Position numbers and translations under genes: made by a program. From the NCBI GenBank assembly GCA_029204225.1, contig CM055092.1:77013679-77077678 (forward strand): DNA of 64,000 bases. Direction: 5' to 3'. Under the pieces are notes generated by a model. It worked only from the letters and a program-made list of their open reading frames with translations, had not been told where the DNA came from and did not search any database. Shown here one piece after another: positions 1,036 through 57,129 of the stretch (position 1 is its first letter; every line of letters starts with the position of its first letter). The stretch is from Diphasiastrum complanatum. Lineage: Eukaryota; Streptophyta; Lycopodiopsida; Lycopodiales; Lycopodiaceae.

Positions 1036-1726
1036 AGTGGCCCCAGGGGTTTGGACTGTTAGAGGGTGCCTTGGACATTGGAGTCGGACCTAACTTGGAT
1101 AATAGTGGAATAGGACGATGGGGTCAATTGACCACCTGCACGCGATATTAGCATGTGTGTTGCATTTATGTATAAACTTGAATGTACATGCATTGTGATT
1201 TTGCATGGGTCTTAGCAATAATAGGTTAGGGGTTTCTATATGTAGTAGACATGCATGGGAGATTGGCATGATCTGATAGGTGGCTCCCATGTGGATTCTG
1301 TGCATGGGCAGGTGGGGTAGGTTCTATGCTCTATATATACCCTCACCCATGTCTATGGGGATCACAAAGAATCTTACGGTCATTATGTTGTTGGACTGTG
1401 AAGCGCTTATCTTGTGATTTTGCCTATCTCTTGGATTGCTCAGTTGCTAAATCGGTCTATGATGGGATGGTTTTGTCTGCTGCACTCTTCCTTTTTGTTC
1501 TTGGAGCTCTATCTCAATTTGGAGTCTTCAAGATGTTTTATTGGTATCAGCGCAATGGTGGAGTTAGAATAGCAATAATCAATGTGTATTTCTACAACTA
1601 CTTTCTAAGTTTGACAATACACTTTAATTGAGTTCTAGAGTTATCGGGCCATTGGTTGTGAGATTGATCTCAAATTGTGTTTGCTAGATCTCATAAGGAG
1701 TTGGATTCACTTTCAAGTATCATTCT

Positions 1727-1727
<1 letters not shown>
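1036..1727. other. Unassigned sequence
   Basis: No coding region or element boundary could be supported. A plus-strand open frame of about 100 codons at 1326-1631 has no recognisable motif and ordinary non-coding composition. Confidence 0.35.

Positions 1728-1815
<88 letters not shown>
1728..1815. repeat. (AG)n microsatellite
   Basis: Uninterrupted AG dinucleotide tract of about 88 bp. It lies about 100 bp from the broken left end of the copia fragment. No LINE 3' hairpin precedes it. Confidence 0.95.
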
Positions 1816-1817
<2 letters not shown>

Positions 1818-1913
1818 GCATATCTGTTGATTCAAACGTAGTGGTGTAAAGAGCTTGATTGTTAAAAGAGTAGCAGTGGTTGAGCTTGTATAAATTGTCA
1901 CTTCTTCTCCCAA

Positions 1914-2220
1914 AAGCTAGAGTTTTTCGGGACTTTCAAAGATTGTACAGCCATTTGTGTCAAATTCAACCCTCCGACCTGAATTAGTGATTTTACTAAC
2001 TGAGAGTGGATTTTTAGTCAAATTTGGAACGTGAAGAACGTTGGACACCCTTCTGAAATTTGACCCTAACTGTTCCTTCACCCTGGATTGTGTGAGATGA
2101 GTTGTCTCCAAGTTGCACAACTCGAGAGTGGGTGTATAATTTGTAGTCCTTGAACCAGTCTTTGTGGTGAGTCATGTGTTGTGTTGCTCCAGAGTCAAGA
2201 TACCAAGAATCGATATCCTG
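1914..2220 (-). pseudogene. Ty1/copia protease and pre-integrase fragment
   Basis: On the minus strand, directly downstream of the gag remnant, the translation contains WYLDSGATQHMT, the retropepsin active site (DSGA) used by copia elements to cleave Gag-Pol. After a frameshift comes the spacer typical before integrase, with VLHVPNLTKNPLSVSKIT. Integrase, reverse transcriptase and RNase H are absent: similarity stops near 1914, where unrelated sequence and an AG tract begin. It belongs to the same element as the LTR at 3099-3760. The frameshift and truncation make it non-functional. Confidence 0.85.
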
Positions 2221-2956
2221 CTATTCTCCGCCCTTGGTCATAAAAGCTGCTTCATCTTCCTCTTGCTGTTGGGTCAAAAAATTGGTTGAAGCACTATGTG
2301 CTTGTTGGTATTGCTGCTTCTTTTCATTATTATATTTCAAAGCTCTATAGTTCTTGATTTCATGTCCAGTTATTTTGTAGTATTTGCAGAATAGTTTTTG
2401 CTTTGGTTGGAAGGATGAAGAGTTCGAATTTGACCCTAAGTCAAAATTTGACCCAGAGCTAAAATTTGACCTAGAGCCAAAATTCGACCTTGAGCCAGAA
2501 TTCGACCCTGGCTGCATATTGCTCTTCCTTTTGGATCTGAACTTCTGATTTTTTGAATATAGTGCTTGTGGATCCGATCCTGAGCCTGAGGAAGAAGTTG
2601 ATCTTCTGATTTCTTCTTGTAGAAGTAATGAGAGTACTCTTGATAGAGTTAGATGCTCCTGGATCGAAATTGTCATGACCCAATTTTCATAGGTTTTAGG
2701 CAGACTTGATAATAGAGTCATAGTAGCATCAAAGTCTTGTAAAGTATTGAGATGACTCGAAACACTTACTGCTTCAGACATTCTGGGAGAAATATTTCTT
2801 CCTCCTTGATGATAGTAGCTACTTCACCCTCTGGCTTGAATTCAGTGTCTCAACAACGTCCCACAGCTCCTTGGCTAATAGCATGACCTTTAATTTGAAC
2901 TTCCAGAGATGATAGTTCCCTCCATCGAGCCTTCCGATTAGAGAAGACGGATCCAT
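2221..2956 (-). pseudogene. Ty1/copia gag remnant
   Basis: The frame opens on the minus strand at 2956 with MDPSSLIGRLDGGNYHLWKF, the typical copia Gag start (L-x-G-x-NY-x-x-W). After a frameshift near 2830 it resumes with LNTLQDFDATMTLLSSLPKT and a Ser/Asn-rich linker. A nucleocapsid knuckle is recognisable near 2345-2400, but two of its three cysteines are tyrosines (CKYYKITGHEIKNY), so zinc binding would be lost. Gag normally forms the particle that packages the retrotransposon RNA. The start was chosen for its Gag homology and its position 130 bp after the primer site. Confidence 0.85.
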
Positions 2957-3083
2957 TTTGGCTGAGTGAGATCGTTGGTAGTAACAATGATTTCGGAATA
3001 TTGTTGGCTGTGGGTTTGCTAGTTCGTTGTCTTGATAGAAACAAGACTAATAATCCACAATGAGAAGTAGATTACTTGGATGC

Positions 3084-3098
3084 TTGCTCTGATAATGA
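3084..3098 (-). other. Primer-binding site (initiator Met tRNA type)
   Basis: The minus strand reads TTATCAGAGC directly after the LTR end, a near match to TGGTATCAGAGC, the usual plant copia primer site complementary to the 3' end of initiator methionine tRNA. The first bases are altered. Confidence 0.75.
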
Positions 3099-3760
3099 TG
3101 TCGGAAATTAGTTGGGTTTGTGCGGAAGCTGGGAGCGAGCTTGGTGAGTGGATAAAAAATTCCACAATTAGCAACAAAATGTTCAAACTGAATTGATTCA
3201 ACAAATGCAAGTGAACTATAACAGTAGCCTAGATAGATAATTGCACTTTGATTAATATCAACAATGAGTACAATGCTTGAAGTAATTACTTCAGCTGATT
3301 GTTGTGTGTGATAAAACTGGCAACAGAAATATATCTAGTCAATTACAATTTTAGTAGTAACTATATATCAGAAGAAGCTTTGCGATGAAGATTCTAGGAT
3401 TAGATATACTAAAAATATCCACAACTAACTTGCATTGAATGCTATCTTCTATATTAATTACAACTGCCTTGTAACTGTAAATACATATATCACATATGCA
3501 GACTATCAATGCGAAGTCGTTGGGTCAACAATATCAAAATTTACAATGGTTTGGATTTTATACAAAGGATCGAAAAATTTACATTGGGCTGGGGTTGGAA
3601 AAATTAGACCCGATCCAGAGTCGAACATGCCCAGATAATTTAGTGAAGGGTCGAAGAAATCCGAACCGATCCAACCCGACCCAAGGTCAAAAAAATCTCT
3701 ATTTTGAATGGTTTTTCAGCATTAATAAATGGATTTGAGGTTGATCATTGAAATCCAACA
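3099..3760 (-). repeat. 5' LTR of the copia fragment
   Basis: The LTR begins on the minus strand with TGTTGGATTTCA at 3760 and ends with TTTCCGACA at 3099, so its ends are short inverted repeats (TGTTGGA and TCCGACA). Length is 662 bp. The primer site follows at once and gag lies 140 bp further on. No partner LTR is found at the other side because the element is broken near 1914. Confidence 0.8.
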
Positions 3761-3764
3761 ATAT

Positions 3765-3955
3765 AGTCCTCACTACAATTTAACAATATCTTGCTCTCTT
3801 CTGAGTTCCTGAACTACTTATCTATCGTATTCAATTTGAGGATCTCTTCCTATATCTCTAATGATATTGTTTAGGTTTTCTAAGATGTATTCAACCAATG
3901 AATCACGTACTCCCAATTGTAACTCAGTGTATTGAGTAGAGGTTCCTCTCAATTC
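3765..3955 (-). repeat. Right copy of a diverged dispersed repeat
   Basis: Direct-repeat partner of 850-1035, starting four bases outside the copia LTR. The minus-strand reading contains the conserved peptide EYILENLNNIIRDIGRD, and the reading extends to the right with a plausible coding stretch (WRELRGTSTQYTELQLGV). Stops interrupt both copies. The family is unknown. Confidence 0.6.
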
Positions 3956-5024
3956 TCTCCACACTAAATTCTCACCTAACTCATACGCTTTTAAGTAACT
4001 GTTGTCAGCCTATGTCTTACTCTAAACAACTTATTTTCCTCCAGAAGATGTTTTTTAAAATCTCAAGAATAGAAGTAATGATGGAAAATTCCGTTTTTGT
4101 ATAGTTGACAAAAATCTCTAGGTAAAGGTAGTTTTTGAAGTCCCAATCGTGTTATGACAATCATGGGCCATATCTTGCTCTAGTAGAACTCTATAGCTGA
4201 ATGAAACATGTCGCTGTTAAAATCCATGATGTATTCACTTTGATATAGATCAATACTTTGACTCTAAACCCTTCGTTGTCAACTTCTATAGCCAAATCAC
4301 ACGTTCTTACAATGTTGATGGTGGTATCTAGGGTTACCAACTCCACTACTACCCAATCAACAATCCCGATAAAATAGGACAATACCTTTTGGGACTAGTT
4401 GAAATATAAGCCATTCACTAGCTGCCTTTTTCATATATTTCTTAAGAGCACTCTTAAGGGTATTTTTGTAAGGACCACCACGGGAAAATCCCTAAGATGA
4501 GGATAGGAGAACACAACAAGAGGGACTATGGAGCCAAACGGCCCAGCCAAACATAGATCAATCCTGGATCTAGCCCCCAAGCCATGCCATGTGAATGCTA
4601 GAGGAGAAGAGAGCAACTGGTGACCTAAACCCAAGTTTTCCACGAGAGAATCTGTTACATCCATGTCCCGTAGGTGGGATTCGGAATAATTCATGACATG
4701 CATAGCTGGTCACTCTAGTGTATGTGATTATTACTTATGCCTCGTCATTCCGGGCTTGGTCGATAAAGTAATTAATAGTCATATGAGGGCCCAGACCTAT
4801 AATTGGACATAGGAGCACTTGCATGGTGTTTGGCTGCTATAATGCAAGAATAGGAGGTTAGTTGCTATTCCAGGTTGCATGGGGATCCTAAGAGGAATAT
4901 TCTTTGTTGGAAGTAATTCTAGTTTATGCGGTGGATAGATCTACTCACAAATGTAGTGAGGAGAGGATCGTCCACTTCTTAAGATCTACAAGCTTTACAA
5001 CAAAATAAAAACATAAACAATGGA
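3956..5024. other. Unassigned sequence
   Basis: No domain, splice-consistent gene or element end was recognised. TGTTGGAAGTAATTC near 4914 resembles an LTR start, but no matching end or primer site was found. Confidence 0.35.
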
Positions 5025-5191
5025 GAGCACCAAGGCTTCCCAATTGGTGCTCGGAATAAAATGGTGTGGCTAAGGCGGTACCCAACTAGCCACTACTTGG
5101 AAAATAACTAAGACTTTGCTAAGGCTTTCCCAACTAGCAAAGGTGAATGAAAATAACAAGATCTTGCTAAGGCTTCCCAACTAGCAAGATC
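5025..5191 (+). repeat. Array of four hairpins with a shared loop and different stems
   Basis: Four units follow each other every 41-48 bp. Each has a perfect inverted repeat around a loop close to AAGGCTTCCCAACT. The stems are GAGCACCAA/TTGGTGCTC (5025-5052), GTGGCTA/TAGCCAC (5066-5093), CTTTGCTA/TAGCAAAG (5114-5142) and GATCTTGCTA/TAGCAAGATC (5160-5191). Loop sequence is kept while stem sequence changes on both sides. The function is unknown. Confidence 0.8.
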
Positions 5192-5819
5192 ATTAATCTA
5201 GATCCTACTTAACACCCAAAAGGGAGATAAAATATAAATTGCGTCTAATACTAAGCAATAAGCAATAATGAACATGCCACAATAAAAACCGATGAGAAGG
5301 AGGCAAGAGGAGGACCAAGACCTTTTCTTAAGCTATGCACCTTCCCAAAGGGAACACAATGAAATCACAAGATGATCACAATAGCAATTTGTCATAATCA
5401 CAAAGTGTTGATTACGAGGGAAATGCCTTTCTTCTTTTAGCAAAAAGGGCCTTCCATAAGTATCCACTAGCTTATGGGATTAGTGTCTAAACTAGCCATT
5501 CTAAGGCTTCTCAACTTCTAACTTAGAACTTAGGACTTTTTAGAATCTCTAACTCTAGACTTAAAATAGCTTAACATAACTTAGAATCTTTCTAAGCTTA
5601 AGTTTTCTTAATTCTAAATTCTAAGTCTAAGTTTAACTTGATTAATTTATTTAACTACCCATAGACTTAAAAACACATGCCATAGTAGAAGTTTATTAAC
5701 ATTTACTCCTATGTATACTTACTTTTGCCTTGATATATTGATGGAGCCCCTTGGAAACCTGCCCCATCTCCCTCACCCACCCACATGCACACACTCTTTC
5801 TCTAGAATCCCCACTCACC

Positions 5820-5822
<3 letters not shown>
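5192..5822. other. AT-rich region, no recognised gene
   Basis: Contains locally repetitive words such as CTTAGAACTTAG and CTAAGTCTAAG between 5500 and 5640. No coding feature was supported. Confidence 0.35.

Positions 5823-5899
<77 letters not shown>
5823..5899. repeat. (TC)n microsatellite
   Basis: About 77 bp of uninterrupted TC, followed by a looser CT-rich stretch to about 5950. The LINE 3' hairpin is not present upstream. Confidence 0.95.
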
Positions 5900-5903
<4 letters not shown>

Positions 5904-6731
5904 AACTCTCTCCCGCGCTCTTTCTCTTCTCTCTCGCTCTCTCTTTCTGCCTGCGGACTGTTCCACTGCCTGCGCGTAGCCCTTTTGTTTATTTATTTAT
6001 TTGAATTATTAAAAAACGCATCCAGGACGCTGGTGAGATTGAATACTCTAGCATCTTCATATCAGCATTGTCATCTAATTAAGATGATCAAGCATAGTAC
6101 ATCTACAAGGCCGGCTCCATTGTCGAATTGTCGCATTGTAAACTGACCTCCTAAGGTGCCAAAGAGATTGTACTGGATCTCATTCACCAACCAGACCACT
6201 TTTTGGGTTGCTAGTGGTAATTTCTCCCAAGGTCCAATGTCAGGAAGTGTGCAAGTATAGCATGGGGTTGAATGGAAGAAAATCTAATATTGAGGGAGAG
6301 GATGGAATGTGAGAAAATGCAGGTGGAGGTGATTGAGATATGGGAGGAGATAGGTGGAGGTGATTGAGGTTCTAGAGGTGGTGAATGTGGAGGTGATTGA
6401 GCTTGTAATGGAAAAGTGTGGATTGGATTAGTTGTGACGATGGCGGATGTGGTTTGTGTTAATAGTTGTAATACAGAATCGTCTACATTGACTACAGATT
6501 CAAGTAGGGTTGGGATAGTGGAATTGAATCCCGTGTTAAGTTTGAATGAAGGGGTGGATGTGACAGTAAATGGTGGGGGTAGTGGTGAAGGAGAGTTGTG
6601 TTAGTAGGCAATGATACCAGAACAGCTGAAGTTATCCAAGTAGGCAGGACCACGCCTAATGATCCAGAGCCGGAAGCGCCTGCATCCAAAGAGCTTCTGG
6701 TTGCTACTACTACTTGTCTTCTTTGCTGGGC
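5900..6731. other. Unassigned sequence
   Basis: No recognised gene. The GGTGG-rich stretch 6290-6600 is low in complexity. On the minus strand 6490-6690 is open and may be a Pro/Leu-rich tail of the neighbouring unknown frame, but this is not demonstrable. Confidence 0.3.
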
Positions 6732-7208
6732 CTATTGAAGTAGGGCCTCTTGTTGCGCCAAAACCTTCTTTGGAACCTGAGAGGATTTCAAGATCGTGCC
6801 AAATTTAGCATACTCTATCCCTATATCACTGGATAAGATATAAGGTGAAATAGGTTCAGCTAACACTTGCGAGTTGGCCCTTTTTTTGGTGCTAAGATAT
6901 ATGTCCTCTAGCTCTTTGAGGACCGCGGCCATATGTTGTCCCATGTGTTGGCTGACCAACATATGAAGAAGATATCCACATTTGGTGGTGGATTTGTGAG
7001 ATTTCAAGACCACACATAGCTTCTCATAAACCTTCTCTGCCCACTTATAATTTTGAGTAGGATCTTTCATGGTGAGGGTTACATAGATCGCTTTTGGTGG
7101 AATGTGATCCATTTTGACAATGTGAACCTCAACCATGGCCATGAGGACTTCTGCAGTTGCCTGGAGCTTAGGATCCTTGATGAGTCTGATGGCAATGTCA
7201 TCATTCAT
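6732..7208 (-). CDS. Unknown repeated protein family, copy 1 (partial)
   Basis: An open frame of 158 codons on the minus strand. It is clearly homologous to the plus-strand sequence at 20950-21230: both contain MVE-H-VKMD-IPP, LTM-(K/D)-(D/N)-PT and STTKCGYLLHML or its equivalent. The N-terminal half present in the other copy is missing here, because the frame runs straight into a copia protease fragment of opposite strand near 7229. No known catalytic motif is visible. It could be a Gag-like or accessory protein of an undescribed retroelement, or a domesticated remnant. The cleaner reading frame suggests this copy is the less decayed of the two over the shared part. Confidence 0.5.
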   Translation of the reverse strand: MNDDIAIRLIKDPKLQATAEVLMAMVEVHIVKMDHIPPKAIYVTLTMKDPTQNYKWAEKVYEKLCVVLKSHKSTTKCGYLLHMLVSQHMGQHMAAVLKELEDIYLSTKKRANSQVLAEPISPYILSSDIGIEYAKFGTILKSSQVPKKVLAQQEALLQ

Positions 7209-7228
7209 CTACACGATGGTCTTTTCAT

Positions 7229-7659
7229 CGTCTAGCAGAACTTCGAAGCAAGGTAATCCTACTCTTGATGAGGATGGTTTGGATGTTCAAGATGCAAATG
7301 ATGATGCTTTTGTGATGTCTTCATGTATGCTTGCTAATGCTGGAGATCTAGATCCATGGTGGATTGATAGTGGAGCAAGTTCACACATGACTTTTCACAA
7401 AGATAAATTCACTTCTTTGTTGGCATATGGAGATGACAAGAGGGTGATCTACACGGACAATGATGGTGAGTGTACAATCAAAGGGATTGGCATAATTCCT
7501 ATTTCTTTCTCTACAAATAGGAATGTTCATTTGGAGGATGTCTTGTTTATTCCATATAGTACCAAGAATTTGCTTAGTGTGAGTCAATTGCTAAGTAAAG
7601 GCCTCAAAGTTGAGTTCATGGAGATGCTTGTATGTCAATCAAAAGGAAGGATATCTTGA
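7229..7659 (+). pseudogene. Ty1/copia protease and pre-integrase fragment
   Basis: The plus-strand frame contains DPWWIDSGASSHMTFHKD, the copia retropepsin active site, followed by the pre-integrase spacer (VHLEDVLFIPYSTKNLLSVS, then LLSKGLKVEF). It ends at a stop at 7657-7659. There is no gag part ahead of it and no integrase behind it. The codons before about 7229 belong to the antisense side of the unknown family at 6732-7208, so the apparent start is artificial. The two sequences abut at a rearrangement point. Confidence 0.85.
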
Positions 7660-8074
7660 TTGGAAAAGGTCAAACTTAAACATATGTGAATGGTCCTTGT
7701 CTGTTTAACTAGTAGTGTCGATGCTACAAAAGGAATTAGAATGCAATATCTAGAACTCAATTATCCAACCAAATTAGAAGATTTAATTTCCAATGACAAT
7801 AGATGTGGTAAAAAATCGAATACACATAGAATATTCCCTAGCTACCAAGATCAATGAAAAAACATCAATGTTGTATTTGAGAGTATTGATGATGGAAGTT
7901 CCAAGATGCACAATTTTTTTCAAGTATCAATATATCATTGTACATGTTTGATATATATTGAAAATTTTCCAACTATTTGTAACTTTCTAGAAGACATTTA
8001 CTATCCACCAAACCTTACTAGGTAAGCACCAAGGGTCCAAAACATCAATAATGCATCACAGGTTCACCACATCA
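7660..8074 (+). other. Possible decayed coding remnant
   Basis: A plus-strand reading from about 7715 is open for roughly 45 codons (starting SVDATKGIRMQYLEL), then shows a stop and continues in frame to about 8020. The composition looks coding, but no family was recognised. Confidence 0.25.
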
Positions 8075-8920
8075 TCATTTGAAAGTAATACAAAAAAGAC
8101 ACGTTGCAAACCAACATAAATACATTCTGAAATATGTTGTACTACAAAACGTAATGAGATACATTCCGAAATTTGTTGCACTGTACTGATTGCACTCACC
8201 ACAACTGTATTTTCGTCTTCCATACAAACAAGGGCATATAGATGTTGTGATTAACTTATTGCAACATCCTCTACCCTCTGCTTTCATTCCTTGACACCTT
8301 ATTTTGCATTTTGGGCTCAAACGTCGAATTGGCCACCAGCTACTATTATAACTCTCTCAATCACAGTTTCCTATTTTTGCAAAATGTTATCTGGATGAAA
8401 TCCTGACACTCCACAGGATGTGGGATTGGATCCTGCAAAAAAATTAGTAGGACAACTATTGCCATGATGTCCTTGATAACTCTTTCTACGATGCCTTGAT
8501 ATATATTTAACATATGTGCGATGAGATACAATATCTTTTTCATTGTTCAATTCTTGCACTGGATGTTTTCTTCTCAATGTTTGTATGTTGTTCACATCAG
8601 TGGCAATTTCAAAAGTAAGGTCCACGAAGCTGTTAACAGATTCTAAATGAAGCACTAACAATCAAAGAACGACGACCTGCAAGCACTCAAGCAAGCAAAT
8701 CTTGTAGATTTGGACCTTTTCCTACGAACATCCCAGCAAAAAAAAGATTTTCCTCTTGAACTTTGAAGTAAAACATTTGCCATATCACCCATTGATGCCT
8801 CGTATAGGGATACTTTTGTGCCTTGATTGTCCATTCTTTGCCAAACACTATGCACAACCTATGCCAAATTTGTTGTGGGCATCAAAGCCTCATCCACATC
8901 ATTCATCAGTTGGAGCAAAC
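8075..8920 (-). pseudogene. Unassigned minus-strand coding-like segment with a Cys-rich block
   Basis: Three successive minus-strand open stretches (8655-8855, 8371-8661, 8075-8320) overlap or nearly join. The last holds a cysteine cluster, CKIRCQGMKAEGRGCC, then ICPCLYGRRKYSCGEC, that could bind zinc. Beyond it a short peptide (ATNFGMYL, then TYFRMYL) is repeated because the DNA is duplicated with a spacing of about 50 bp (8098-8170). Splice or frame links between the pieces were not resolved. This may be the remains of a spliced gene or a transposon gene. I do not recognise the family. Confidence 0.3.
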
Positions 8921-11440: not shown

Positions 11441-12760
11441 AACTCATGCAACATGGGTCTTAACTCGTGCACAAACCCAACGCCAAGCCCCTACTCTTGC
11501 ACCCAGCAAAACCCAACAGCATAATGTAGCTCCAAGTGAAGACTCGACACCTATTGTCTATCCTCACCCATCTGAAGAAATTTGGCTGCATCATCAGTAT
11601 CGCAATGCAGACCAACAATCTTCCACCTCCCATAAAGTACCTCACAAGTCTTTTGAAACCAAAAACCCTTGAAGGCACTGAAGTCTGGGGGTATTTATTG
11701 CAAGCTAATGTGACTCTCCCTTTCCATGTTCTCTGGAAGCATGCTGGAAAATGGAAACACCAAATCCAATTCATTGACACCACCACCCCTGACGAGTAAT
11801 CTGAAATGCCATTACACCTCACAAATCCACTCAGTGAGCAGGGCAACATCAAGATTCCAGCTACCCATCGCCAATCTCGCGAAGTGCTAGTTGTTCTAGA
11901 TGGTGGCTCTGGCGTTAACATCATTTCCACATCCCTCATATTAAAATGGAATCTGAGAGACAAACCTACCAAACTCACTTGTCAGCTTAGGATGGCTGAT
12001 CAAAGTGTGGTCTGACCGACCAGTTTCCTTCCGCAAGTGCTGATCAAACTAGGAGGCCTAAAGTTTTCTGTAGATCTGGTTGTACTCGATATTCCTAGTA
12101 ATGCCTATTCCTATGAGTTACTACTTGGTTGCCCATGGCTCACCAATGCAAGAGTCGTTCACGATTGGAGCAAAGGCCTCGCGAGTCACCTTTGGAAATA
12201 GAGATAGCTTTATCACAATCGATTCATCTGGCAAACTCAAACCTGCACGAATTCATGACAAGGGATTCTCGACCAGTAATTCAGTGTTTGAGCCATACCA
12301 GTCGACCCACGAAAAAGGTCATTATGTTAAATCTACTGATATCGTAAACTGGAGTCACAGTTTAGCTACCATTGATTGTGTGAATGCCAATTATTGTACT
12401 CAACATCAAGATGATTGTACCTATCCTCCCCTGACCGATAACGAACAATTACCTGATCTAGATACACCTATCATTAATATCAATTTTATTGATATTCTTC
12501 CACACAATGATGCGTTGCTAAATGTTGCATGACTACCTATTGATGAATTAGAAGATTTATTTGTAGATGACGAGAATGTCTTACGAATTCAGAATTGCCC
12601 AAACGATTTGGACATTTCTGTTATTCAAATCCTCAACTACATGGAAGTGCTTCCACTCAAGACCTACTCGCAGTGGACATTCAAAACGAAAAAATATTGA
12701 AATTATATACAATGATGTCGTTGTGACATGTGTTGAGGTGGAAGAAGATTAGAGTCTAAA
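11430..12760 (+). pseudogene. Ty3/gypsy-like protease fragment
   Basis: Frames on the plus strand contain REVLVVLDGGSGVNIIS, an aspartic protease active site of the kind found in plant gypsy polyproteins (D-G-G-S-G in place of D-T/S-G). About 60 codons later comes YELLLGCPWLTNARVVHDW, the matching C-terminal motif of the same domain (normally LLG-R-PWL). A Pro/Thr/Gln-rich stretch precedes it (11450-11600). A stop at 12013-12015 and several frame changes (near 11670, 12190 and 12530) disrupt it. No reverse transcriptase follows. The D-x-G signature is altered, but the family usually carries this form. Confidence 0.65.
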
Positions 12761-13012
12761 CTACATCCGGTGGAAACTATTGCTCCTACAAGATGATGTA
12801 CTTTCAGACTTCGGATTCATTTTCAATAGTAAATTCGTAAGTAACTGTAAACACTCGATCTTTTATGAATAGTTTCAATCAAAACTTTCTAATACAATCT
12901 CTGTACTAGTTGTAACTAACTTTGTATTAGTTTTATGCAGGTACGTAAAAGACATGAGCTCGAGATCAAATGCAGAGATATTGGTGAAACAATCCAACTT
13001 ATGGAAGAACAT
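12761..13012 (+). CDS. Possible terminal exons of a plus-strand gene
   Basis: A short open stretch ending FGFIFNSKF meets GTAAGT at 12837. An acceptor TTTTATGCAG at 12931-12940 opens VRKRHELEIKCRDIGETIQ and a stop at about 13010. The splice signals are good but the upstream gene is not identified. It runs convergently towards the Ulp1-like gene, whose stop is only about 200 bp away. Confidence 0.25.
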
Positions 13013-13215
13013 TGAGATTCACTATCAGCGAATACATGCCAATCATCATGTCTTTTTATCAATATAGAAAATTGCATTCCAGTATTACACTATGGACACA
13101 ACCTGATTGTAAGAATCTATATTGATATCAATAAAAAAATCCATAAACGGGTTGTTTACATGTAAAATGATCATATCTTCTTCTTTTTTATGTATCTCTA
13201 TTTACAAATAGATTT

Positions 13216-14618
13216 CTATTCAATCAATTTTTCTATATTTTTTTTATCAGTATTAGGAACTGATAAGGGAACAACTCCTATAATCTCGCCCTCTGTTTCG
13301 CGAAGGGCCTCAATGCGTTTTAAGGCAAGAGGAATATCTGCTATAATATTGTCTTCCTCTGTATCAGGAAGAACTTTTATTCCTTTTTTATCATATAAAA
13401 TAAGATCTGCATCCTGAGCAACCTGAAAGGCTGTTAAGGCGGGAGCAGCTTTCTTTTGAGGGCCCTCGATCCCAGGTGCAACGCTTACATCGTACTGAAC
13501 ATAGGTTTTGATCAACTCTTGCTGAAATCTATATACATCATCAGGAGTATACGGCTCAAGAATGAACTGTCATCACAAAACACGAGAATCAACAAATTAC
13601 AAACAATGATAGTAAAAAAATATGAATCAGAATGAAAGGAACCACAAATGAACAGAATATTACCTTTTCAATATCTACATCCACTTGTAAATTATACCAT
13701 TCAAAAAATAGCTTTGTATTGTACCGGACGAACCATGCACAACTAAAAGCATCGTTTTGTTGTACACATTGCATATATAGAACGAAAATTAGTAATATTA
13801 TGATAGAAATTTTATTTATGCTATGACGATACATTTGAATTAACAAAGGAATATATACATATCAGAGATAAATTGAAAGATCTAATGGTTATTGAAGTTG
13901 TCGTTGTCGGTATTTTTCGAACGACGTCATGAAGTAGAGAATCAAATTCTCTCTGTGTATTTGTAACCGAGTTTAATTTTACACATAGAAAATTTGATAC
14001 TCCCTTCTTATTTATCTTTACAAAAAGAATATTCAAGCTCCTCCAATGCCGACTGCAACAACCAAAATCCAAATATCGATAAATTCATATTTATGAAAGA
14101 ATTCCGTACTTATTAAAGCAATGAAGCATGCAACAATCCAGATTAAAGCAACAAAAACAAAAGAGCAATCTTTACTTATATTCATATGGAATCAAATAAA
14201 ATTTTGCCACAGGATTGCATTCGATAAAATAGACAGCCTTCCCAAAATTGGCTTCTTTCGTCTTTATCGCTTCCATGATAAATGGACTAACAACAAAAAC
14301 TGTACCATGAGAATCGAAACTAATACTATTATGCAAAAAAGATACTCCAGCTTCTACTATTACATCTGAAATTTATGAGGTTTTATCTTTCAGCTCGACA
14401 CAAAATTTGGGACCTAATCTAAATCTTGTACGTGTATCTGGAAGAAAAAAATCAAAAAAATTGTCGAGAAGATCAATTTCATTAGCTAGGTAGGCCTCGT
14501 ATTGATTATAATGGTCAGAATCAAAATAAACTTGGGCTAGATCGTATGAAATTCTAACAAAAAGATTATTTATAGGAGCAGAAACAGAAGTGGAAACAAT
14601 ATTTACAGATTTTTATGT
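13216..14618 (-). CDS. Ulp1-like cysteine protease (C48 type), spliced
   Basis: Minus-strand exons, joined by plausible introns, give a papain-like Ulp1 fold. From N to C: an acidic lead (14424-14618), an intron inferred at 14368-14423 (GTCCCA to TTTCAG), FVVSPFIMEAI with YFIECNPVAKFYLIPYEY, an intron ending TTGTTGCAG near 14052, then RHWRSLNILFV with the catalytic His-Trp. Later comes CVQQNDAFSCAWFVRY (about 13727-13774), matching the Q-x6-C active-site block, although the usual D-C-G is S-C-A. An intron (13567-13663, GT to AG, phase 0) leads to a C-terminal extension of about 117 residues that ends at 13216. Ulp1 enzymes remove SUMO-like tags, and many plant transposons carry such genes. 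The join near 13850 is unresolved, so activity is uncertain. The frame upstream is continuous with the histone-H3-like segment except for two stops. Confidence 0.6.
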
Positions 14619-14633
14619 TATTTTGTCGAGCTC

Positions 14634-15302
14634 CTATTGGGTAATCAACACTTTTGGTGATGAAACCTGCTGAGGAGTTGGACGAACAACATGAGGAGGA
14701 AGGAGTGAAGATTCTCGATCTGAGTTAGATTCTCCAGCATCTGACTCAAAGCTCAAGAAGATACGGGGTCTCTTGGCCGAGATACGTCTAGGAGGCCCAG
14801 GAAGCAGCTGGCCTTCGAGATCCAGTCTTCTTGGAAACAGGCTCTTCCTCTTCCTCCTAGAGGTACTCGGCAAGTCGGTTCTATCCATAGGCAGGTCTCT
14901 GGAGGTGTTGGCATTATCAACAAGCAGACTAGAATATCGGTTCCGAAGCCTTTTGAGAATGACGAAATCCTTTGGCATGATGGTGACACGCTTACCATAC
15001 ACTGCCAAAAGACAAGTATCCTCAAAAAACAGGGACAGAAAATCTTCTACAGCACCCTGTAAGGCCTGCATGGTTGTCACGGCAAAACAAACATTTAGTC
15101 CAAGTGACAAAATGACATTCCTTACAGATCGGCCGAAAGGAGCTCTAGGAATCAACAATTTAGTTGATCTTTGGAGTTTTCTAATCTCCCTCAGCCAGAC
15201 CTACTTCTTGCCACGTCTACGGCCAGTACCAGGGGGAACATGAGAATGGGACAACTGTACAGTGGTTATGGCACGGGCAGTGGATTTGGTCCTGGCCATC
15301 AT
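14634..15302 (-). pseudogene. Histone H3-like protein with a long C-terminal extension
   Basis: The minus-strand frame starts at 15302 (or 15299) with MARTKSTAR, almost the exact H3 N-terminus (lysine 4 kept, lysine 9 replaced by alanine). The tail is only about 33 residues and ends at an in-frame TAG (15201-15203). The same frame resumes with WLREIRKLQRSTKLLIP (alpha-N and start of the fold), then MQALQGAVEDFLSLFFEDT (alpha-2) and YGKRVTIMPKDFVILKRLRN (loop 2 and alpha-3). The spacing between alpha-1 and alpha-2 equals canonical H3, so the loop-1 insertion typical of CENH3 is lacking. About 90 further residues follow, with RRKRK and KRPR basic patches (likely nuclear signals) and a Ser/Pro-rich end. 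It stops at 14634, sixteen bases before the protease coding sequence in the same frame. The internal stop implies decay unless it is read through. Confidence 0.75.
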
Positions 15303-15379
15303 TCTCAGAAGAAAAAAAATTAACAAAAAAAAGTTTGAACAAAAGCAAAATGGATGAAGACAAAAAAAAATTGCGACAA

Positions 15380-16180
15380 AAAGACGCTTGAGATCGATTC
15401 CAGAACTGAATATTGATTTTGAGCGCAAGATATACACAGAATATTTTAAGAAACGATATGGCCGCTCGAAAGCGATATTGGACTACCAGCGGTATCGGTC
15501 TTGAGCACACTGTGAGAGGGCGGAAGCTTGAACGGTGAGAGAGAGAGCGCTTGAGAGCGATATTGGGAGCGAAAACCGAAAATTTTGCAAAAAAAAATGA
15601 AAATTCCGAAGACTTGTATATACGAAATTTTCACACGTGTGAAAAGATGGTCGAGACATGTGTCGTCAGCTAATTGGTCCACGTGGAATGTTCGTACTGA
15701 CAATGATGATTCAATTATGAGGCCACGTGGGCTGGGACACGTGCACAAATCCATTTTCGACGCGTGTCATTCTCGCACGTGATAGATGTCAGATCAACAT
15801 TCTAGGTACGACACATTAATTTTGACCAATCACAAGTGGACACATATTCCTTCGTTACTCCTACACACGTGCAAAAATTTATTTATAAATAGGTCTTTTT
15901 CAGTTCGGATTTTCACGCAAATTTACTATTTCTTGGCCGGATATCGATTTCAAGCGCGTCGTTTGCACTGATTACCCTTCGTTGACTAATTTGCGCCTGG
16001 AACCAATACTGCCTCGTCCGGTATCGCATTCAAGCGCACATTGCATCTCCTTTCTTTTGTGCTCTATGTTCTTGAGCTCGGATCCAATACTCCAATTTGT
16101 AATATGGCTCTCGAGCACATATTGCCTTGGCGTGCTTGCCTGACCTACAGTTTGCGCCTGAGAGCGATATTTGGAATTTT
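15380..16180. promoter_or_regulatory. Divergent intergenic region with six CACGTG boxes and an inverted motif array
   Basis: This region separates the H3-like locus (minus) from the gene starting at 16204 (plus). Six CACGTG boxes lie at 15634, 15680, 15724, 15738, 15776 and 15866. A TATA-like TTTATAAATAGG lies near 15881, facing the plus-strand gene. On the left, variants of GCTTGAGAGCGATATTGG recur near 15386, 15466, 15488 and 15549. On the right, the reverse-complement form (CCGGTATCGCATTCAAGCGC) occurs near 15938 and 16018, with further variants at 16070, 16107 and 16157. CACGTG is the plant G-box bound by bHLH and bZIP factors. The motif array could be a transposase-binding cluster. Confidence 0.55.
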
Positions 16181-16203
16181 ACATCTGTTGTTTTTTTATT
16201 AAA

Positions 16204-17719
16204 ATGTCTAATTTTGATTCTAGTTTGCTTTCTTTCTTTTATGAATTTGATATTACTGATAGTTTGGAGTATTTCAAATTTCTTTTTTCTCCTTTTCTTT
16301 TTATTCTTCCTTCTATAACTGAGGGCCCTGGTGTGGAGGCATTTTCCAGAGATATATCTCATATTTAAGTCCCTGCTCAGTACTTTGTTATTCAGATCTC
16401 AGAATAAGGACATGATTCATTATCAAAATCTGGTGGCACTCGACAAGCATATTTATAAAGATAAGCTTGACAGAATGTTTACCAAGTTACATAATGATTT
16501 CAAGTCTGTAGATGAGTGCCCAATTCATAATAAAAAATGTAGATTTGTTGATTTTTAGTCTGCTTTTGTTTTTTTTCTTTTGTTAAATATTTTTGACGAT
16601 TTGGAGGTTGTCCCTTCCACTTCTGAAGCTGCTATTTCTAGTGGTACAAAGTCTGAAAAGTCAAAGATTGTAGATATAGATATTTTTTTTATTGATACGA
16701 GCGTTAATTTAGATGATTGTTCTGATTTTGATCCTGCTCGAAATAGGACACTCTTTATAGGCCCTAGAACACCCACTACTCTTTCTCCTTCTGATAAATC
16801 TTTGATCACTTTGCCTACTTATAATATAGATAATAATTTCTTTTTGACAATATCGGATATATCGGATCTTTTTTACTTCACTGAAGCTAAGACTCTTTGT
16901 ATTTTGAACAAAGAGCTTGATGAATTTTTGGATATAATTGATTTTGATGCTGCTGATCTTCTCCCTGGTGTTGACGATGTACATAATCATAAGTTTTATT
17001 CAGGGAAAGATTGCTTGAAAATGGCTGTGGAGGAAATGCGCAACAAAAAAGATGATCTACCTTCTGAGGAGGAGTTTCTTAGAATCCAAAGTCAACTTGG
17101 TTTTCCACAACCAACTGTCTATTCACCAACAATATTGACATCAAAAGGTGGACATAATATTGATGGAGAGACAGTACTCAGGAAAGACAAAGCCGAATGC
17201 GTAAGTTTTTGTATCTTATCACGTACTAGTAGATTCGTTATGTCAGATTATATACTGGAGCTTACTTTGTTTTTTATCATTTCAAAAAATAATTTTCCTT
17301 GATGATTTCGCAATTCATCGAGGAGGGCATAGATCTTCTCCTGGAGAATTTTCAAGAGATCATACACTGGGGCACTATCTGAAGTTTCTCAAGAATAATG
17401 AAATAAGTGTTTCCCATTCAAAGTTTCATCAACATGATGAAACTATGATTATGGTAATCAAGACACTGTCTCATTTTCTTGGAGGACATAATTTCAATAA
17501 GGTGCATAAAATAATTTTTGTAAGAAAACCATTGCGGTTAAAATTTTGGGATATGGACCAGTGAATTCCATGCTCAAATCATCTCATTTTGCATTGTATG
17601 CTGCTTACGTTGATCTGAGTAAGCATGAAAACTATGAGCTATTGGATCCATACGAAAGAAGAAAACTGTTGCATGATTCTAAGTCGCAACTTTCATTGAA
17701 AAAAATATCGGAAGCAAAT
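16204..17719 (+). CDS. Unknown multi-exon gene divergent from the H3-like locus
   Basis: The likely start is MSNFDSSLLSFFYEF at 16204. After a short unresolved exon region (16320-16400), a second stretch contains DRMFTKLHNDFKSVDECPIH and the longest open part runs 16580-17210, an acidic protein with ELDEFLDIIDFDAADLLPG and SGKDCLKMAVEEMR. A donor GTAAGT at 17200 leads to an acceptor before GGHRSSPGEFSRDHTLGHYL near 17320. A further exon contains GYGPVNSMLKSSHFALYAAY and ends at about 17719. I recognise no domain. The gene runs head-on into the transposase-like gene, whose 3' end lies at about 17720. It is probably an accessory gene of the same mobile element. Confidence 0.45.
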
Positions 17720-19866
17720 TAGATACTGCTGAATTGTACTTTGTAAATATTTTTACTTAATATACAAAATTTTATTGTGTGTCTATAGCCTATTGGCTTA
17801 TATAAATTCGCATGTTTTTTGAAATTTTTTATAATCCGTCGATTTTGTATTATGATGAATTTGGATTCTTCTGCAAAACCATTGGAAAAGTTGCAGTATA
17901 TAGCTGTTTTTTGTGCTAGTCCTGCCATGTTGTGTACTTTTATGAAATGCCGCTCTTGCTTGCCAACAATGAGATTTTTCCATTTCTTGTGATGACCATA
18001 TGCTAAGACTTCCATTATTTCTTGCAAAGAATGTTGAATGATGTCGTAATATGTGCATAATCTAAATCAGTACCGAAAGTATCTAATTTAATTGCACATA
18101 TTTGTCTATTGTAGTGTAAAATCAAAATCTTACCATCTAATGTGTTATATGATCAACACCCCATGCACTTTGAACTGCATCCACAAATTCATTGGTTGTT
18201 TTTTGTATCATTTGTACATCAATATTTGAAAATTTATCTTTTCTCAAGTATTTCACCATGTTGTTTAACTTTTTCCAAACTTCTACTTTGTGTATACGAG
18301 TAGAACCTTCTTTTTCGAAATCTTGAGTTGCTGCAATAATTTCTTTCCAAACCGTGTATTGAACCTTGGATTGTTTGCCAGAATAATTTGATAAAAATCT
18401 TTGAGCTTGGCTCCAATGCTCGGCTTGAATGGAATATTTCCTGTTTTACCTGATAGCTTGTCATCTTTATTTATTTTAACGTGGCCTTTATGTAAGTCTG
18501 CTTTGGACAACACATCCTCTAATCTGGAAGTAGCTTCTTTCGTAGAGGCCTCTGGCTCGGAATTCCATGCAAACAAGATGTGAAGATATATTATTTTTTC
18601 TATAATACGCACCTACGCATGCAATGTACAGATATGAACATTTCGTAGAGGAATCGGTAGTACATGTTTCCAATTAGGATCTTCTCGATCTCTTGATATT
18701 CCTATACTCCTTGTCATGTCTTTTGCTATTTTTATGCAGTACAAACAAGGGTGTTTAGAGTTAGCGCCATGAGATACATTGAACATACATTTTAATGTCT
18801 TCAGATCTCCTGCTAAATGCCATTCAATGTTGAAAGTGCTAATTTCAAGAATATTGAGTGGAACTCCCTCCATGTGATTTTTTATGGTGGCATGATATGA
18901 TGTTCTATTAAATATCCAAGAGAAAATGTCATGGTCTTCTTTCAACACCTATAAGAGAATACAAAAACGTGATTAGCCTCATAATATTAACACAGAGAAG
19001 ATTTTCCATATGAAATTCATATTCAAATAACTATCCCTATCTATTATGCAAAGAAACTGCTATACTTGAAATGCTGCCAACCACCAGATATCATTTTCTG
19101 ATTGAACACTGAAATTGAGGCCTTCTAAGTCTTCTGACTTTGAACTTGCTCCATTCATGATCGTGAGACTGACTCTTTCCATTTTTTGTCCTTTTATAAT
19201 TTCAGACTCATCTAACTTGAGAACAACTATCAACTTGTTATTGACATTCTCATTTGTAATACCGTAAAAATTTATGATGAATGTTAATAACTGATTAATG
19301 TCAATAAATAAATTGTTGGAATTGTTATAAGCTAGACTTTCTCCTTTCGAGCAATACACTTCATTTATATGAGATGGATTACCATCTGGGTTACATTTAT
19401 CACAAGTTAGTAACATCACCTTCATGTAAAACTCTTACATGAAATACATCCAAACAAGTTTTCATCTTTGAAGATTTTTCTTCGCACTCCTTTGATATTT
19501 TCCTTGATTCTTCTTCCAAATAATGTATTCTTTGCATTGAATGTGCATTCTCATAGAGCATCAAATTTTCATAGTAGCCCAAAAGGCCATTTTTACCATG
19601 ACACATATAGATTATTAACTAACTCACCGAATGAAAATCTGGATGTTGCAATGAACATGGATCAATAGGATACAATGTTCCTGATGACCATAAATCTACA
19701 TGCTTTAGTTTTTCCTCCCTGTATCGGACCATATCAGAAGTTGACAATTTGGGTTGCTTTGAATTTCTTGTCCCGAGCGGAACATATCTTGGACTTTATA
19801 TCATTCAGAAGATATTTGCCTCTGGATACGTACAACTCCAAACCTTACAGGTGATATTTTAGACAT
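17720..19866 (-). pseudogene. DDE-type transposase-like gene, spliced
   Basis: The start MSKISPV is at 19866. A 59-base intron (AAG|GTTTGG to TATAAAG) keeps frame into SPRYVPLGTRNSKQPKL. Next come a Glu/Lys-rich likely coiled coil (YLEEESRKISKECEEKSSKM), CDKCNPDGNPS, and VVLKLDESEIIKGQKMERVS with a candidate first catalytic Asp. After a GT-AG intron comes EWHLAGDLKTLKCMFNVSHG with PCLYC, a candidate second Asp followed by a CxxC pair, a layout seen in poorly studied animal and plant DDE transposases. Two in-frame TAG codons (near 18613 and 18140) interrupt the C-terminal half, so this copy is probably dead. It lies tail to tail with the gene at 16204-17719. Assignment rests on motif layout alone. 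Confidence 0.45.
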
Positions 19867-20582: not shown

Positions 20583-21240
20583 CCATGGCTTCTCGCGCCT
20601 CATCACTCTCTCTTCATCGTCACAAGGCCCCTAAGCCTTATTCAGACGATATCTTCTTGATTTCCATCAAGAATTATGTTGAGCAACTTATCTTGGCCAA
20701 GGATATTTTTACCAACCTTGGCTTTGATCTGACATACTTCACTAATCAGCAGAACAAGAGTTTGATTTGAGCTGCCTACTCAACTTATTCAGACGAGTTC
20801 CAGACCTTTCGGATCACGTCTAAGGGCGGCAGTTCTACCATCATCAACATCTCCCCAAAGCATTTACAAAGAGTTGGATTTTCTAACCTGGGCGAGACAA
20901 TCCATCGCAAGGGTACCAATTATGATGCCAAGTATTTCACCAAGTTTCTAATGGATGACGGAAAAACAATTACCCAAACCAACGATGGGATCACTATTTG
21001 CCACATCACGGATCCTGAGCTTCGGGCAATATTAAAAATCCTGGTGGCCATGGTCGAGTTTCACACCGTGAAAATGGATCGCATTCCACCTAGCAATCTA
21101 TTTTCATTAACCCTCACCATGGATAACCCCACTCATACTGGACCGAAAAAGTGTCAGACAAATTGTGTGGGGCCCTAAAAACTAGAAAACCTACCACCAA
21201 ATGTGGATATCTTCTCCACATGTTGTTGTATCATCTTCGT
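20583..21240 (+). pseudogene. Unknown repeated protein family, copy 2 (longer, interrupted)
   Basis: The plus strand opens at 20583 with MASRASSLSLHRHKAPKPYS and is open for about 200 codons apart from one in-frame TGA (20768-20770). From 20950 it matches the minus-strand frame at 6732-7208 (MVEFHTVKMDRIPP, then LTLTMDNPTHT). A frameshift near 21150 moves the match to the frame containing CGALKTRKPTTKCGYLLHML. The match stops near 21230. This copy shows the N-terminal half missing in the other. Function is unknown. The Gag-like position ahead of copia pieces is suggestive only. Confidence 0.5.
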
Positions 21241-21419
21241 AGTATAGAGGTTCATCGCTGGGAGTGGCAACCTCGCCTTCACCTGCATAGTTCAGAAAGG
21301 CTTTGGAGGCTCGAGCACCTACCCAAAGCTATCCTATCCCAACGTAAGAAGAGAGAGGAGAGCCACTATCCACACCTGTGGAGGTTGGTAAGAAACTATC
21401 TAATAAGGATGAGAGTGTA

Positions 21420-22080
21420 CTAGTTGATGCCACTTTATTTCGTCAATTAGTTGGTTCGCTGATTTATCTCACAAACTACTCGTCCTGACATAAGTTATGT
21501 TGTAAGCGTTGTAAGTCAATCCATGGCTACTCCTAGATAGATTCATTGGAAAGCAGTAAAGAGAATTCTTCGTTATGTGAAGGGCACGATAACTCATGGA
21601 TTGTTATATAAGAGGCAACATACTTTACCAGTTTTACAGGGCTTTGTTGATTCAGATTGGGTAGGCTGTATTGATGACAGGAGATCTACCACAGGTTATA
21701 TATTTCATGTTGGTAATGGTGTATTTTCTTGGTCAAGTAAGAAACAAGACATATTTGCTCTTTCTACTACAAAAGCAGAATACAAAGCACTATGTTCAGC
21801 TACGCAGAAAGCAGTTTGGCTAAGAAGAATGTTAGAAGACATTGGAATTCCACATAATAAGCCTACTGTGATCAGATGTGACAATCAGAGTGCCATACAG
21901 CTAGCTAGAAATCTTGTATTTCATGCACGCACGAAGCATATAGAAATTAAGTATCATTTCATTAGAGAGAAGTTGTTATCCAATGAAATAGACATAGTGC
22001 ATTGTAAGACAGAGAATCAATTAGCTGATATATTCACTAAACCTTTAAGTACTGATAAGTTTGAGCAAAGCAAAGAGTAG
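21420..22080 (+). pseudogene. Ty1/copia reverse transcriptase end and RNase H
   Basis: The plus strand begins with LFRQLVGSLIYLTNYSS (end of reverse transcriptase), then has stops near 21488 and 21538. From 21577 an open frame holds copia RNase H: FVDSDWVGCIDDRRSTTGYI, SSKKQDIFALSTTKAEYKAL, IRCDNQSAIQLARN, HIEIKYHFIREKL and LADIFTKPL. RNase H removes the RNA template during reverse transcription. The frame ends at 22080, a few bases before another copia LTR of opposite strand begins, so the 3' LTR of this element is missing. Confidence 0.9.
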
Positions 22081-22087
22081 AGAGAGA

Positions 22088-22553
22088 ATGAGTCCAAAAC
22101 ACTAAAATCTCAATATTCACAATATGGCAAAAAATGCCTAGCTTTCCCTACATGAGAGAGACTCGAATTCCTACAGTGGAGTTGCATGAAAAGTCCACTT
22201 AACTGAACTAATTCACCTACCAGAGATCCACATGTGTAACTTCATGCATGTATGGTGCATGTACTGCATGTCAACTCATAAAATTGCCTAGACATGTGTA
22301 GATCACAGAAACTACTGTGCATGTTACATGCACTGATTGCTTGTGGCTTGCATGCATACAGTAAGACTTTGCATGTTATCAAAACATCTGCATGTCTTTA
22401 CAATTGAACCTATCTAACTCAAATCCGAGCTACGGTAGAAGGATATGTGCTCAATTCACACTCCTTATATGTACAACATGAAATCTAGTGAAAATTATCA
22501 TGGACATGACCCCAAACTCAAGATAGGAAGATAATATTTTAATAATCTTCACA
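22088..22553 (-). repeat. 3' LTR of a minus-strand copia element
   Basis: Read on the minus strand the LTR starts TGTGAAGATTATT at 22553, directly after a polypurine tract, and probably ends near 22088 with GTTTTGGACTCA. The right boundary is firm because of the polypurine tract. The left boundary is inferred from the final CA. Repeated CATGCA words crowd the middle (22240-22400). Confidence 0.65.
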
Positions 22554-22567
22554 CTCCTCCTTAAAAT
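22554..22567 (-). other. Polypurine tract
   Basis: TTTTAAGGAGGAG on the minus strand immediately precedes the LTR start. Such tracts prime plus-strand DNA synthesis in LTR retrotransposons. Confidence 0.75.
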
Positions 22568-24187
22568 TTATGTTCCTATCAACATAGATTTCGAAATTAG
22601 GCCAAGGTTTGACCTCATCTTCATAAAGACATTCTTGAGTAGAGGCTTGGTGAGAAGATCTGCAACACAATCTGAAGATGAAACATGCTCCAATGAGATC
22701 TCTCCTCCAATGACTTTTTCTCTTACAAAATGATGAGCCACTTCAATATGCTTGCTCCTTGCATAAAAGACTGGATTATTTGCAAGAGCCTGAGCAGAAA
22801 TGTTATCATTCTTGATAATTGGTAAATCTTCATCTGCATAACACTTAAGTTCCAAAAGTAGCCTTTTGATCCATAAAACCTCCTTTGTTGTGGTTGTAAG
22901 AGATTTGTATTCAGCTTCACAGGATGATAAGGAAATAGTTGTCTACTTCTTTGATAGCCAAGAAACCAAATTTCCTCCAAGAAATATAGTGTAAGCACTT
23001 GTGGATTTCCTATCCAACCTATCTCCAGCAAAATCTGAATTTGAAAAAGCAATCAAAGTCAGATCTTCTCCTTCATAGTATAGTCCATAATCCAAGGTAG
23101 AAGATATATACCTCAAGACTCTTTTAGCCAACTTCCAATGATATAACTTTGGATCCTGCATGTGTTGACTTAGCTTATGAACACAATTAGATCAGGCCTA
23201 GTCACTGTTAACCAAGTAAGTGAGCCAATAAGACTCCTATAAAGAGTGATGTCCTCAAAGGATTTTTCATCATCTTTAATAGGAACTTTTACAATGTGCT
23301 CCAAAGGTGTATCTATGCCTTTACAGTTCTTCATATGAAATTTTCTGAGCATGGAAAGTGCATATCTACTTTGGCTTATAAATGCATGACCTTTCCAAAA
23401 ATCTATTTCAAGGCCAAGAATATAGTGAAGAACTCCTAAGTCCTGCATCTTAAACTCAGTACCAAGTGCATGCTTAGTTTCTTCAACTAACTTCTCACTG
23501 TTTTCACAAAGAATGATATCATCTACATAGATGAGAAGAATAATTACAAAGTTCCAGAGAAGGGTCATATTCACTTAGACAAAATCCGAGTGATATGAGA
23601 TAAGAATTGAGCCTTGCATACCAAGACCTTGGTGTTTATTTCAGTCCATACAGACTTTTGAATAAAAGACAAACTTTTCATTCATCACCTTCCTTCACAA
23701 AACCTGGAGGTTGCTCCATATAAATCTCCTCCTCAAGGTAGCCATTGAGAAATGCATTAGAAACATCAAACTGAAACATACTCCATTTGTGAAAACGTGC
23801 AAGAGAGATGAGTATTCAAATTATTACCATCTTTGCAACTGGTGCAAAGGTATCTTCATAATCAAGACCTTTAATCTGAGAGTAGCCTTTAGCACAAAGT
23901 CTTGCTTTATACTTATTGATAGATCCATCATGATTATACTTGATTCTGAATACCCACTTACATCCGATCACATGCATGTTGTTTGGTGGCTCCATAAGCT
24001 CCCATGTATTATTTGACATCAAGGCTTCAAATTCTTGGGTCATTGCTTCAACCCACTTCTTGGATTGAAAAGCTTCTTGGACATCGTTAGGCTCTTCATC
24101 TGATATAAAAAGTGCATGATAGAAAGTTTCACCTTCTATTTGCCTTCCTTCTTCATCATATGTGAGCCTCCTTGGCTCAGATCTTGC
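22568..24187 (-). pseudogene. Ty1/copia reverse transcriptase and RNase H, 5' truncated
   Basis: Going 5' to 3' on the minus strand: MTQEFEALMSNNTWELMEPP with WVFRIKYNHDGSI and DYEDTFAPVAKM (start of reverse transcriptase), a damaged middle, then IILLIYVDDIILCENSEKL (catalytic Y-V-D-D), MQDLGVLHYILGLEI, and RNase H with SNSDFAGDRLDRKST, KHIEVAHHFVREKV and VADLLTKPLLKN. Frameshifts near 23800, 23170, 22940 and 22860 break it. Upstream of 24187 the integrase and gag regions are missing. The element seems inserted into the plus-strand copia ending at 22080. Confidence 0.9.
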
Positions 24188-57026: not shown

Positions 57027-57129
57027 CTTTCACGATACGTTCACATGATCAGTTTACAGCTTGGAAACACATTGCAATCAACCCTAAACTACGCAAAACT
57101 ATTGTATCAACATTAAGCAGTAAGTGACC

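Follow-up and report, generated by a model that had tools for sequence, protein, structure and literature searches.

The histone H3-like gene and its transposon

Does the gene with a histone H3-like fold that lies among mobile elements in the lycophyte Diphasiastrum complanatum belong to a transposon, and what might such an element do with it? The gene is located in a stretch of 64,000 nucleotides (assembly GCA_029204225.1, contig CM055092.1, positions 77,013,679 to 77,077,678), hereafter the window. It was shown to be part of a very abundant DNA transposon, in two diverged subfamilies (A and B), with a signature of purifying selection. The transposase of the element is a DDE enzyme of the CMCT clade, which contains RAG1 and Transib. 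The H3-like gene can be taken neither for a simple pseudogene nor for a recently captured one, and it has apparently been kept functional by selection. These results suggest an element that produces a chromatin protein of its own, and the combination of this element identity, a selected histone cargo and an action on chromatin is regarded as probable. The copy in the window has the following features:

12671..19792, no strand: shortened and decayed copy of the DNA transposon with the H3-like gene, lacking both terminal inverted repeats; homologous to query positions 1209-8330 (window 19792-12671)
13219..13569, minus strand: downstream conserved coding segment (tblastn 75% to a segment of copy L044), which may be a 3' exon of the H3-like gene or a small gene in its own right
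14172..15302, minus strand: H3-like gene (subfamily A), with four in-frame stops; the frame ends at 14172
14172..14954, minus strand: basic Ser-rich linker and C-terminal region of the H3-like protein; 150 scored matches cover the 188-residue query, and the farther part was read in copies L039 and L040
14955..15197, minus strand: histone H3 fold (PF00125, E 1.5e-19, residues 2-82 of the 188-residue frame)
15201..15203, minus strand: in-frame TAG, where most copies read have CAG (Gln)
15303..16411, no strand: intergenic region that separates the divergent H3-like gene and gene 2; about 0.6 kb of it is duplicated in some copies
16412..17528, plus strand: gene 2, with relatives in subfamily B; function unassigned, divergent from the H3-like gene and convergent with the transposase gene
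17837..19786, minus strand: decayed transposase gene of the RAG1/Transib type (CMCT clade), interrupted by introns; its D, D, C-x2-C, H and E residues can still be read, and about 0.7 kb is missing near 19388-19446

Read on the minus strand from 15302 to 14634, the window encodes MMARTKSTARAITTVQLSHSHVPPGTGRRRGKK before the TAG and VWLREIRKLQRSTKLLIPRAPF... after it, in the order MARTKSTAR, TAG, histone fold and Ser-rich extension. An original prediction, made from the letters of this DNA, had described this H3-like frame, its motifs and its coordinates 14634-15302 correctly; the strand is the minus strand. The 188-residue frame matched the Pfam family Histone (PF00125) far beyond chance (70.9 bits against a cut-off of 26.4) and H3 chains in PDB with an E of about 8e-18. 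The window copy is dead because of its four in-frame stops (15201-15203, 14634-14636, 14613-14615 and 14373-14375). Of the two explanations offered for the TAG, decay stands, and recoding is ruled out by the CAG that other copies carry at that position. The extension, put at 90 residues, turned out to be much longer: the longest open frame read, that of L039 (P0007; PF00125, E 1.4e-23), has 370 codons, with about 245 residues after the fold, and the frame of L040 is open for 336.

The genome that was searched comprises 1.74 Gb in 5176 contigs, and all candidate totals given here are first-look matches, not copy numbers. The 188-residue frame gave 7398 candidates. The 150 that were scored (window aside) were 70-78% identical, reached within 3 residues of either end of the query and were present on every contig from C1 to C23. 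By eye, and with the window included, about 40 of the 150 were stop-free within the match, so that copies lacking the TAG, for which the original prediction had proposed to look, do exist; about 110 had at least one stop. A Pfam histone search (6325 candidates) returned 153 matches, of which 13 were canonical H3 (163-165 bits) and the rest H3-like, nearly all at 95-110 bits with three partial ones at 82-84; the H3-like matches were not individually checked for element context. In a set of 25 non-redundant copies, 49 stops were counted, and 24 of them were changes from CAG to TAG, the class to which the TAG in the window belongs. Such changes are expected from deamination of methylated CHG cytosines and are a mark of CHG-methylated plant transposons.

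The proposal that a mobile element has an H3-like gene was supported by the loci fetched with the H3-like query: in each of the 30, the window among them, the gene lay inside the same element, whose sequence continued past the gene on one side or both. These loci represent subfamily A because they are the best matches of one search. The Ulp1-like partner expected beside the gene was not recovered, as no Ulp1/C48 peptidase was matched by Pfam in the subset of window open reading frames that was scanned; the usual neighbors are a RAG1/Transib-type DDE transposase and the convergent gene 2, which shares its upstream region with the H3-like gene. No Pfam family matched the gene 2 frames.

Conservation and selection of the H3-like gene

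The selection test within subfamily A used 25 copies, which remained of 32 aligned copies after removal of 7 at ≥97% identity. Variants present in one or two copies had a ratio of nonsynonymous to synonymous changes (N/S) of 2.87, against 2.78 expected without selection, whereas variants common to at least three copies had an N/S of 1.69 (p 0.0017). The difference was larger when C>T changes were excluded (0.94 for shared against 3.44 for rare variants, p 0.001) and was also found in the H3 fold alone (1.06 against 2.60, p 0.006). A first look at selection by codon position had been too blunt.

A transposase search of the genome (19056 candidates) gave 57 scored loci. An H3-like Pfam match lay 1.6-3.2 kb downstream in four of them, and another two loci, probably a single copy duplicated on C5, meet frame-search matches noticed beforehand; this count is partial and uneven, as 134 Pfam-search matches and 5 of the 150 frame-search matches were entered. 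Five further transposase loci were fetched, namely L066, L067 and L068, picked because an H3-like match was listed for them, and L069 and L070, picked blind. A diverged H3-like gene was found in L066, L067 and L068 and, of the blind picks, in L070 and not in L069. These genes form subfamily B. Gene 2 was matched in four of the five loci (none in L067), and the order transposase, gene 2, H3-like gene is that of both subfamilies (L066, L068 and L070). In the one pair of A and B sequences that was compared (L039 and L066), the folds were 59% identical, with proportions of synonymous (pS) and nonsynonymous (pN) differences of 0.80 and 0.29. The long C-terminal region can be aligned between the subfamilies; the tail is not conserved between them, and begins with MDRRKQTRRD in L067 and L068 and with MDRRMQTRRD in L066.

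Relative to H3, the retention of K4, the loss of K9 and a loop 1 without insertion were confirmed as predicted. In the 25 subfamily A copies, K4 was present in 22 and the K9 position was Ala in 22, the later lysines were absent, and R2, K4 and T6 of the H3 tail were recognizable in most. The protein thus has the fold of canonical H3 and not its K4-K9-K14-K27 tail without a long C-terminal extension. Most of the 25 copies retain K115 and the residues that form the H3-H3 four-helix bundle, which makes an H3-like fold that pairs with H4 and dimerizes through H3 contacts plausible. In a tree that left out P0030 and P0035 and had no lycophyte CENH3 among its sequences, the folds of subfamilies A and B formed one clade (support 98/99) apart from the H3 and CENH3 sequences used. 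Together with an identity of about 50% to the H3 of the host, this excludes a recent processed H3 pseudogene, the case that the original prediction had named as its refutation.

Transposase

The model of a transposase homologue has the RAG1/Transib fold; no EnSpm or Plavaka structure was among the matches, so that Transib is not separated from these. In the homologue P0070, H562, H567 and E587 align without gaps with H937, H942 and E962 of mouse RAG1, and D290, C309 and C312 align with D708, C727 and C730 in a colinear, non-significant hhalign alignment, while D193 was placed against D600 by eye. The sequence has the DDE residues of the CMCT clade, with C-x2-C and H-x3/4-H between the second D and the last E; the structural alignment (model residues 71-543) stops short of E587. 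RAG1 was not among the results of a PDB profile search with A2, and a comparison with a single RAG1 sequence by hhalign did not reach significance (P 0.18). An ungapped match of 33 residues to RAG1 had a score of 50, with 1 of 2000 shuffles as good, and a second homologue scored 49, also with 1 of 2000. Because the profile searches fell short of significance, the relation to RAG1 rests on the fold, the motif residues and this ungapped match.

Relatives of the transposase outside this genome are up to 72% identical. In one protein of the fern Adiantum nelumboides (P0098), a DUF7794 protein runs on into transposase-like sequence, perhaps as a gene model that enters an element. A Pfam scan of the genes other than the H3-like gene gave no family above the cut-off, except for DUF7794 in this Adiantum protein, apparently outside the matched part.

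Element ends and integration

All 39 scored left ends of the element (7678 candidates) begin in L045:756-773, 36 of them at 756-759, and all 39 scored right ends (10819 candidates) stop in L044:9569-9581; the query copies were excluded in both cases. The ends are terminal inverted repeats of the 5'-CA..TG-3' type that is found in the CMCT clade (CATTAGAGAAA...TTTCTCTAATG), and one left and right pair matches at 25 of 32 bases. The element starts with CATTAGA and does not have the CAC-type heptamer of Transib and RAGL. Five copies with both ends (on C1, C4, C8 and C17, and L040) span about 7-10 kb. A hairpin before the right end had suggested a Helitron, which is ruled out by the inverted repeats at both ends. 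A viral origin was considered for the multi-gene layout and nothing that supports it turned up, though no viral library was searched.

The bases repeated at both flanks numbered two (TA) in the C8 copy and one in the C4 and C17 copies, with none in the C1 copy and in L040. When the flanks of L040 were joined, 38 of 40 matches had exactly the length of the query across the joint and two were 1 base shorter; for the C8 copy, the length was likewise exact in 38 of 40. Five sequences were read at the joint for L040 and four for C8. The C8 empty site equals the left flank plus the right flank, and its TA is therefore no duplication; in the L040 empty sites, the base after the joint differs (C for A). 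At the C1 and C4 joints, the reading frames are continuous across by eye. Both insertions tested (L040 and C8) have a target-site duplication of 0 bp, which is probably general, in place of the 2-5 bp of the CMCT clade and the 5 bp of Transib and RAGL. The element works like a CMCT transposon, yet lies outside the recorded range of target-site duplications.

Variation among copies and neighboring sequences

In L045 (5433-6598), the divergent promoter region is doubled, with halves that are 79% identical, and the same pattern occurs in other copies. Near the right end of the element, L044 (8133-9091) has two more conserved coding segments on the minus strand without a Pfam match, which are also found in L040 and one of them in L039. 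Beside the element copy in the window, Copia-type coding pieces lie on both strands at 20771-24187. An open frame of 1183 residues at 42851-46402 resembles a LINE-type endonuclease and reverse transcriptase, with broken relatives near 34473-38397 and 57124-59897. These three observations on the window were made by eye from the list of open reading frames.

Possible function and alternative explanations

The original prediction had proposed that the element might mimic or redirect nucleosomes, which stays a reasonable hypothesis. In the reading that we favor, the H3-like protein would pair with host H4 and substitute for host H3 on element DNA or at transposition sites. Because the tail lacks K9 and the later modifiable lysines, such nucleosomes would be unable to bear H3K9 or H3K27 methylation; the element would remain transcribable and accessible to its own transposase. 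Anti-silencing factors and DNA demethylases are among the known cargo of transposons. The retained K4 may be suggestive, as RAG2 of animals has a PHD finger that binds H3K4me3, according to the available part of PMC8355894; no PHD finger was found by Pfam among the open reading frames scanned. A specific anti-silencing mechanism that acts through nucleosomes is possible and is proposed tentatively. More doubtful still is that the element would build its own nucleosomes, with the selected H3-like protein in place of host H3 on the copies or at transposition complexes, so that K9 and K27 silencing by the host would be left without its substrate and the K4 segment would stay readable.

Several observations weigh against this reading. 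R8 is Arg in just 13 of the 25 copies, R63 of H3 is Pro in 24 of the 25, and the K4 position, K in three of the four subfamily B frames read, is Met in L066. Between L039 and L066 the tail looks unconstrained (pS 0.60, pN 0.62). The 25 copies were selected for resemblance to the protein of the window, C>T changes by themselves carry little signal (N/S 1.98 for shared and 2.28 for rare variants), and the C-terminal domain did not depart from neutrality when tested within the family (p 0.29). AF2 modeled the H3-like protein poorly (mean pLDDT 49.9, improved in the histone fold only), and the model had no significant match in PDB. Two protein searches returned general H3 relatives only (6 and 32 proteins), and none outside this genome had both the fold and the extension. 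Transposition may not need the H3-like protein, because some copies are without it: L046 (C11:42557201-42564000) and a copy on contig C1289 jump from query position 5076 to 8233 and keep transposase and gene 2 sequence, and L069 (C17:17849801-17859000) has a transposase copy, part of gene 2 and no H3-like match in 9.2 kb.

The main rival is that the histone fold serves the transposition complex as an architectural or DNA-binding component, with a C-terminal region that binds the transposase, and never enters nucleosomes. HMGB1, which helps RAG, is a parallel. The joining of the fold to a long C-terminal region that aligns between subfamilies when the tail does not, and the position of the gene in the neighborhood of a RAG1-like transposase, agree with such a cofactor; the bundle residues and K115, however, would be needless in a monomeric DNA binder, and the tail residues R2, K4 and T6 in most A copies, like K4 in most B frames, also argue against it, so that it is judged rather unlikely. 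A CENH3 mimic that steers the element to centromeres, or protects it there, is improbable. LLIPRAPF in place of LLIRKLPF and a Leu at the C110 position, as in human CENP-A, point toward it. The alignment with CENH3 sequences showed no lengthened loop 1 of the CENH3 type, copies are found on each of contigs C1-C23, and the fold forms the separate clade described above, although a lycophyte CENH3, absent from that tree, could be one of the H3-like Pfam matches. Descent from CENH3 was rejected, as it had motif likeness alone in its favor, the first tree being unresolved and the later one giving a separate clade.

The remaining explanations fare worse. A decoy that titrates H3 chaperones or modifiers and forms no nucleosome agrees with a kept K4 segment and fold and the loss of the other tail lysines; it would have no obvious need for the C-terminal region, nothing specific otherwise speaks against it, and it is judged quite improbable. 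An H3-like module that is an element or passenger in its own right, only nested with the transposase element, could be read from the three copies that lack it and from the duplicated promoter region at the joint in some copies. The gene order common to both subfamilies, the common outer ends, the upstream region shared with gene 2 and the absence of any locus among the 30 with the gene outside the element render this very unlikely. A functionless captured H3 pseudogene would fit the four stops of the window copy and the stops in about 110 of the 150 scored matches, but the selection signal within and between subfamilies, the roughly 40 stop-free matches and the open frame of L039 leave it scarcely credible.

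Should the H3-like protein enter nucleosomes, the element would offer a direct test of a parasite that escapes silencing by replacing the substrate of the silencing mark. If the element does build its own nucleosomes, it would represent mobile DNA that makes the chromatin on which it is packaged, in a RAG-like system.

Comparison with known systems

The H3-like protein shares with H3 and CENH3 the histone fold, a K4-type start of the tail and the bundle residues, and differs from them in its identity of about 50%, its short tail without K9 and later lysines, its long C-terminal extension, its location in an element and its separate clade. Among the matches listed for the open-access literature, preprints not covered, no transposon with a core histone was found.

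The CMCT clade comprises EnSpm/CACTA, Mirage, Chapaev, Transib, Plavaka, ESTA and Lanisha (PMC12730594). The present element shares with it the order D, D, E with C(2)C and H(4)H between the second D and the last E, as well as the 5'-CA..TG-3' ends, and the fungal members resemble it in having chromatin-related extra genes (TET/JBP). It differs in its target-site duplication of 0 bp, against 2-5 bp in the clade, and in its H3-like gene, of which the available part of that paper makes no mention. From RAG1, Transib and RAGL, as described in the accessible parts of PMC7204232, PMC4411706 and PMC9435367, the element differs in having no CAC-type heptamer and no 5-bp duplication, in a gene 2 without Pfam match and in sequence profiles below significance. 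Gene 2 is convergent with the transposase gene, as is RAG2L, the RAG2-like Kelch gene, in RAGL. Transib-like proteins have already been reported in plants (PMC9435367, in part). With its RAG1-like fold, its plant-type host genome and insertions that lack a target-site duplication, the transposase extends the range known for the enzyme family of V(D)J recombination. VANC, the anti-silencing protein of VANDAL transposons, is not a histone, and the VANDAL transposase is of another type. As plant transposons with an accessory gene that counters silencing, the VANDAL elements with their VANC proteins (PMC10398659 and PMC5735166, available parts) provide a model for the function proposed here.
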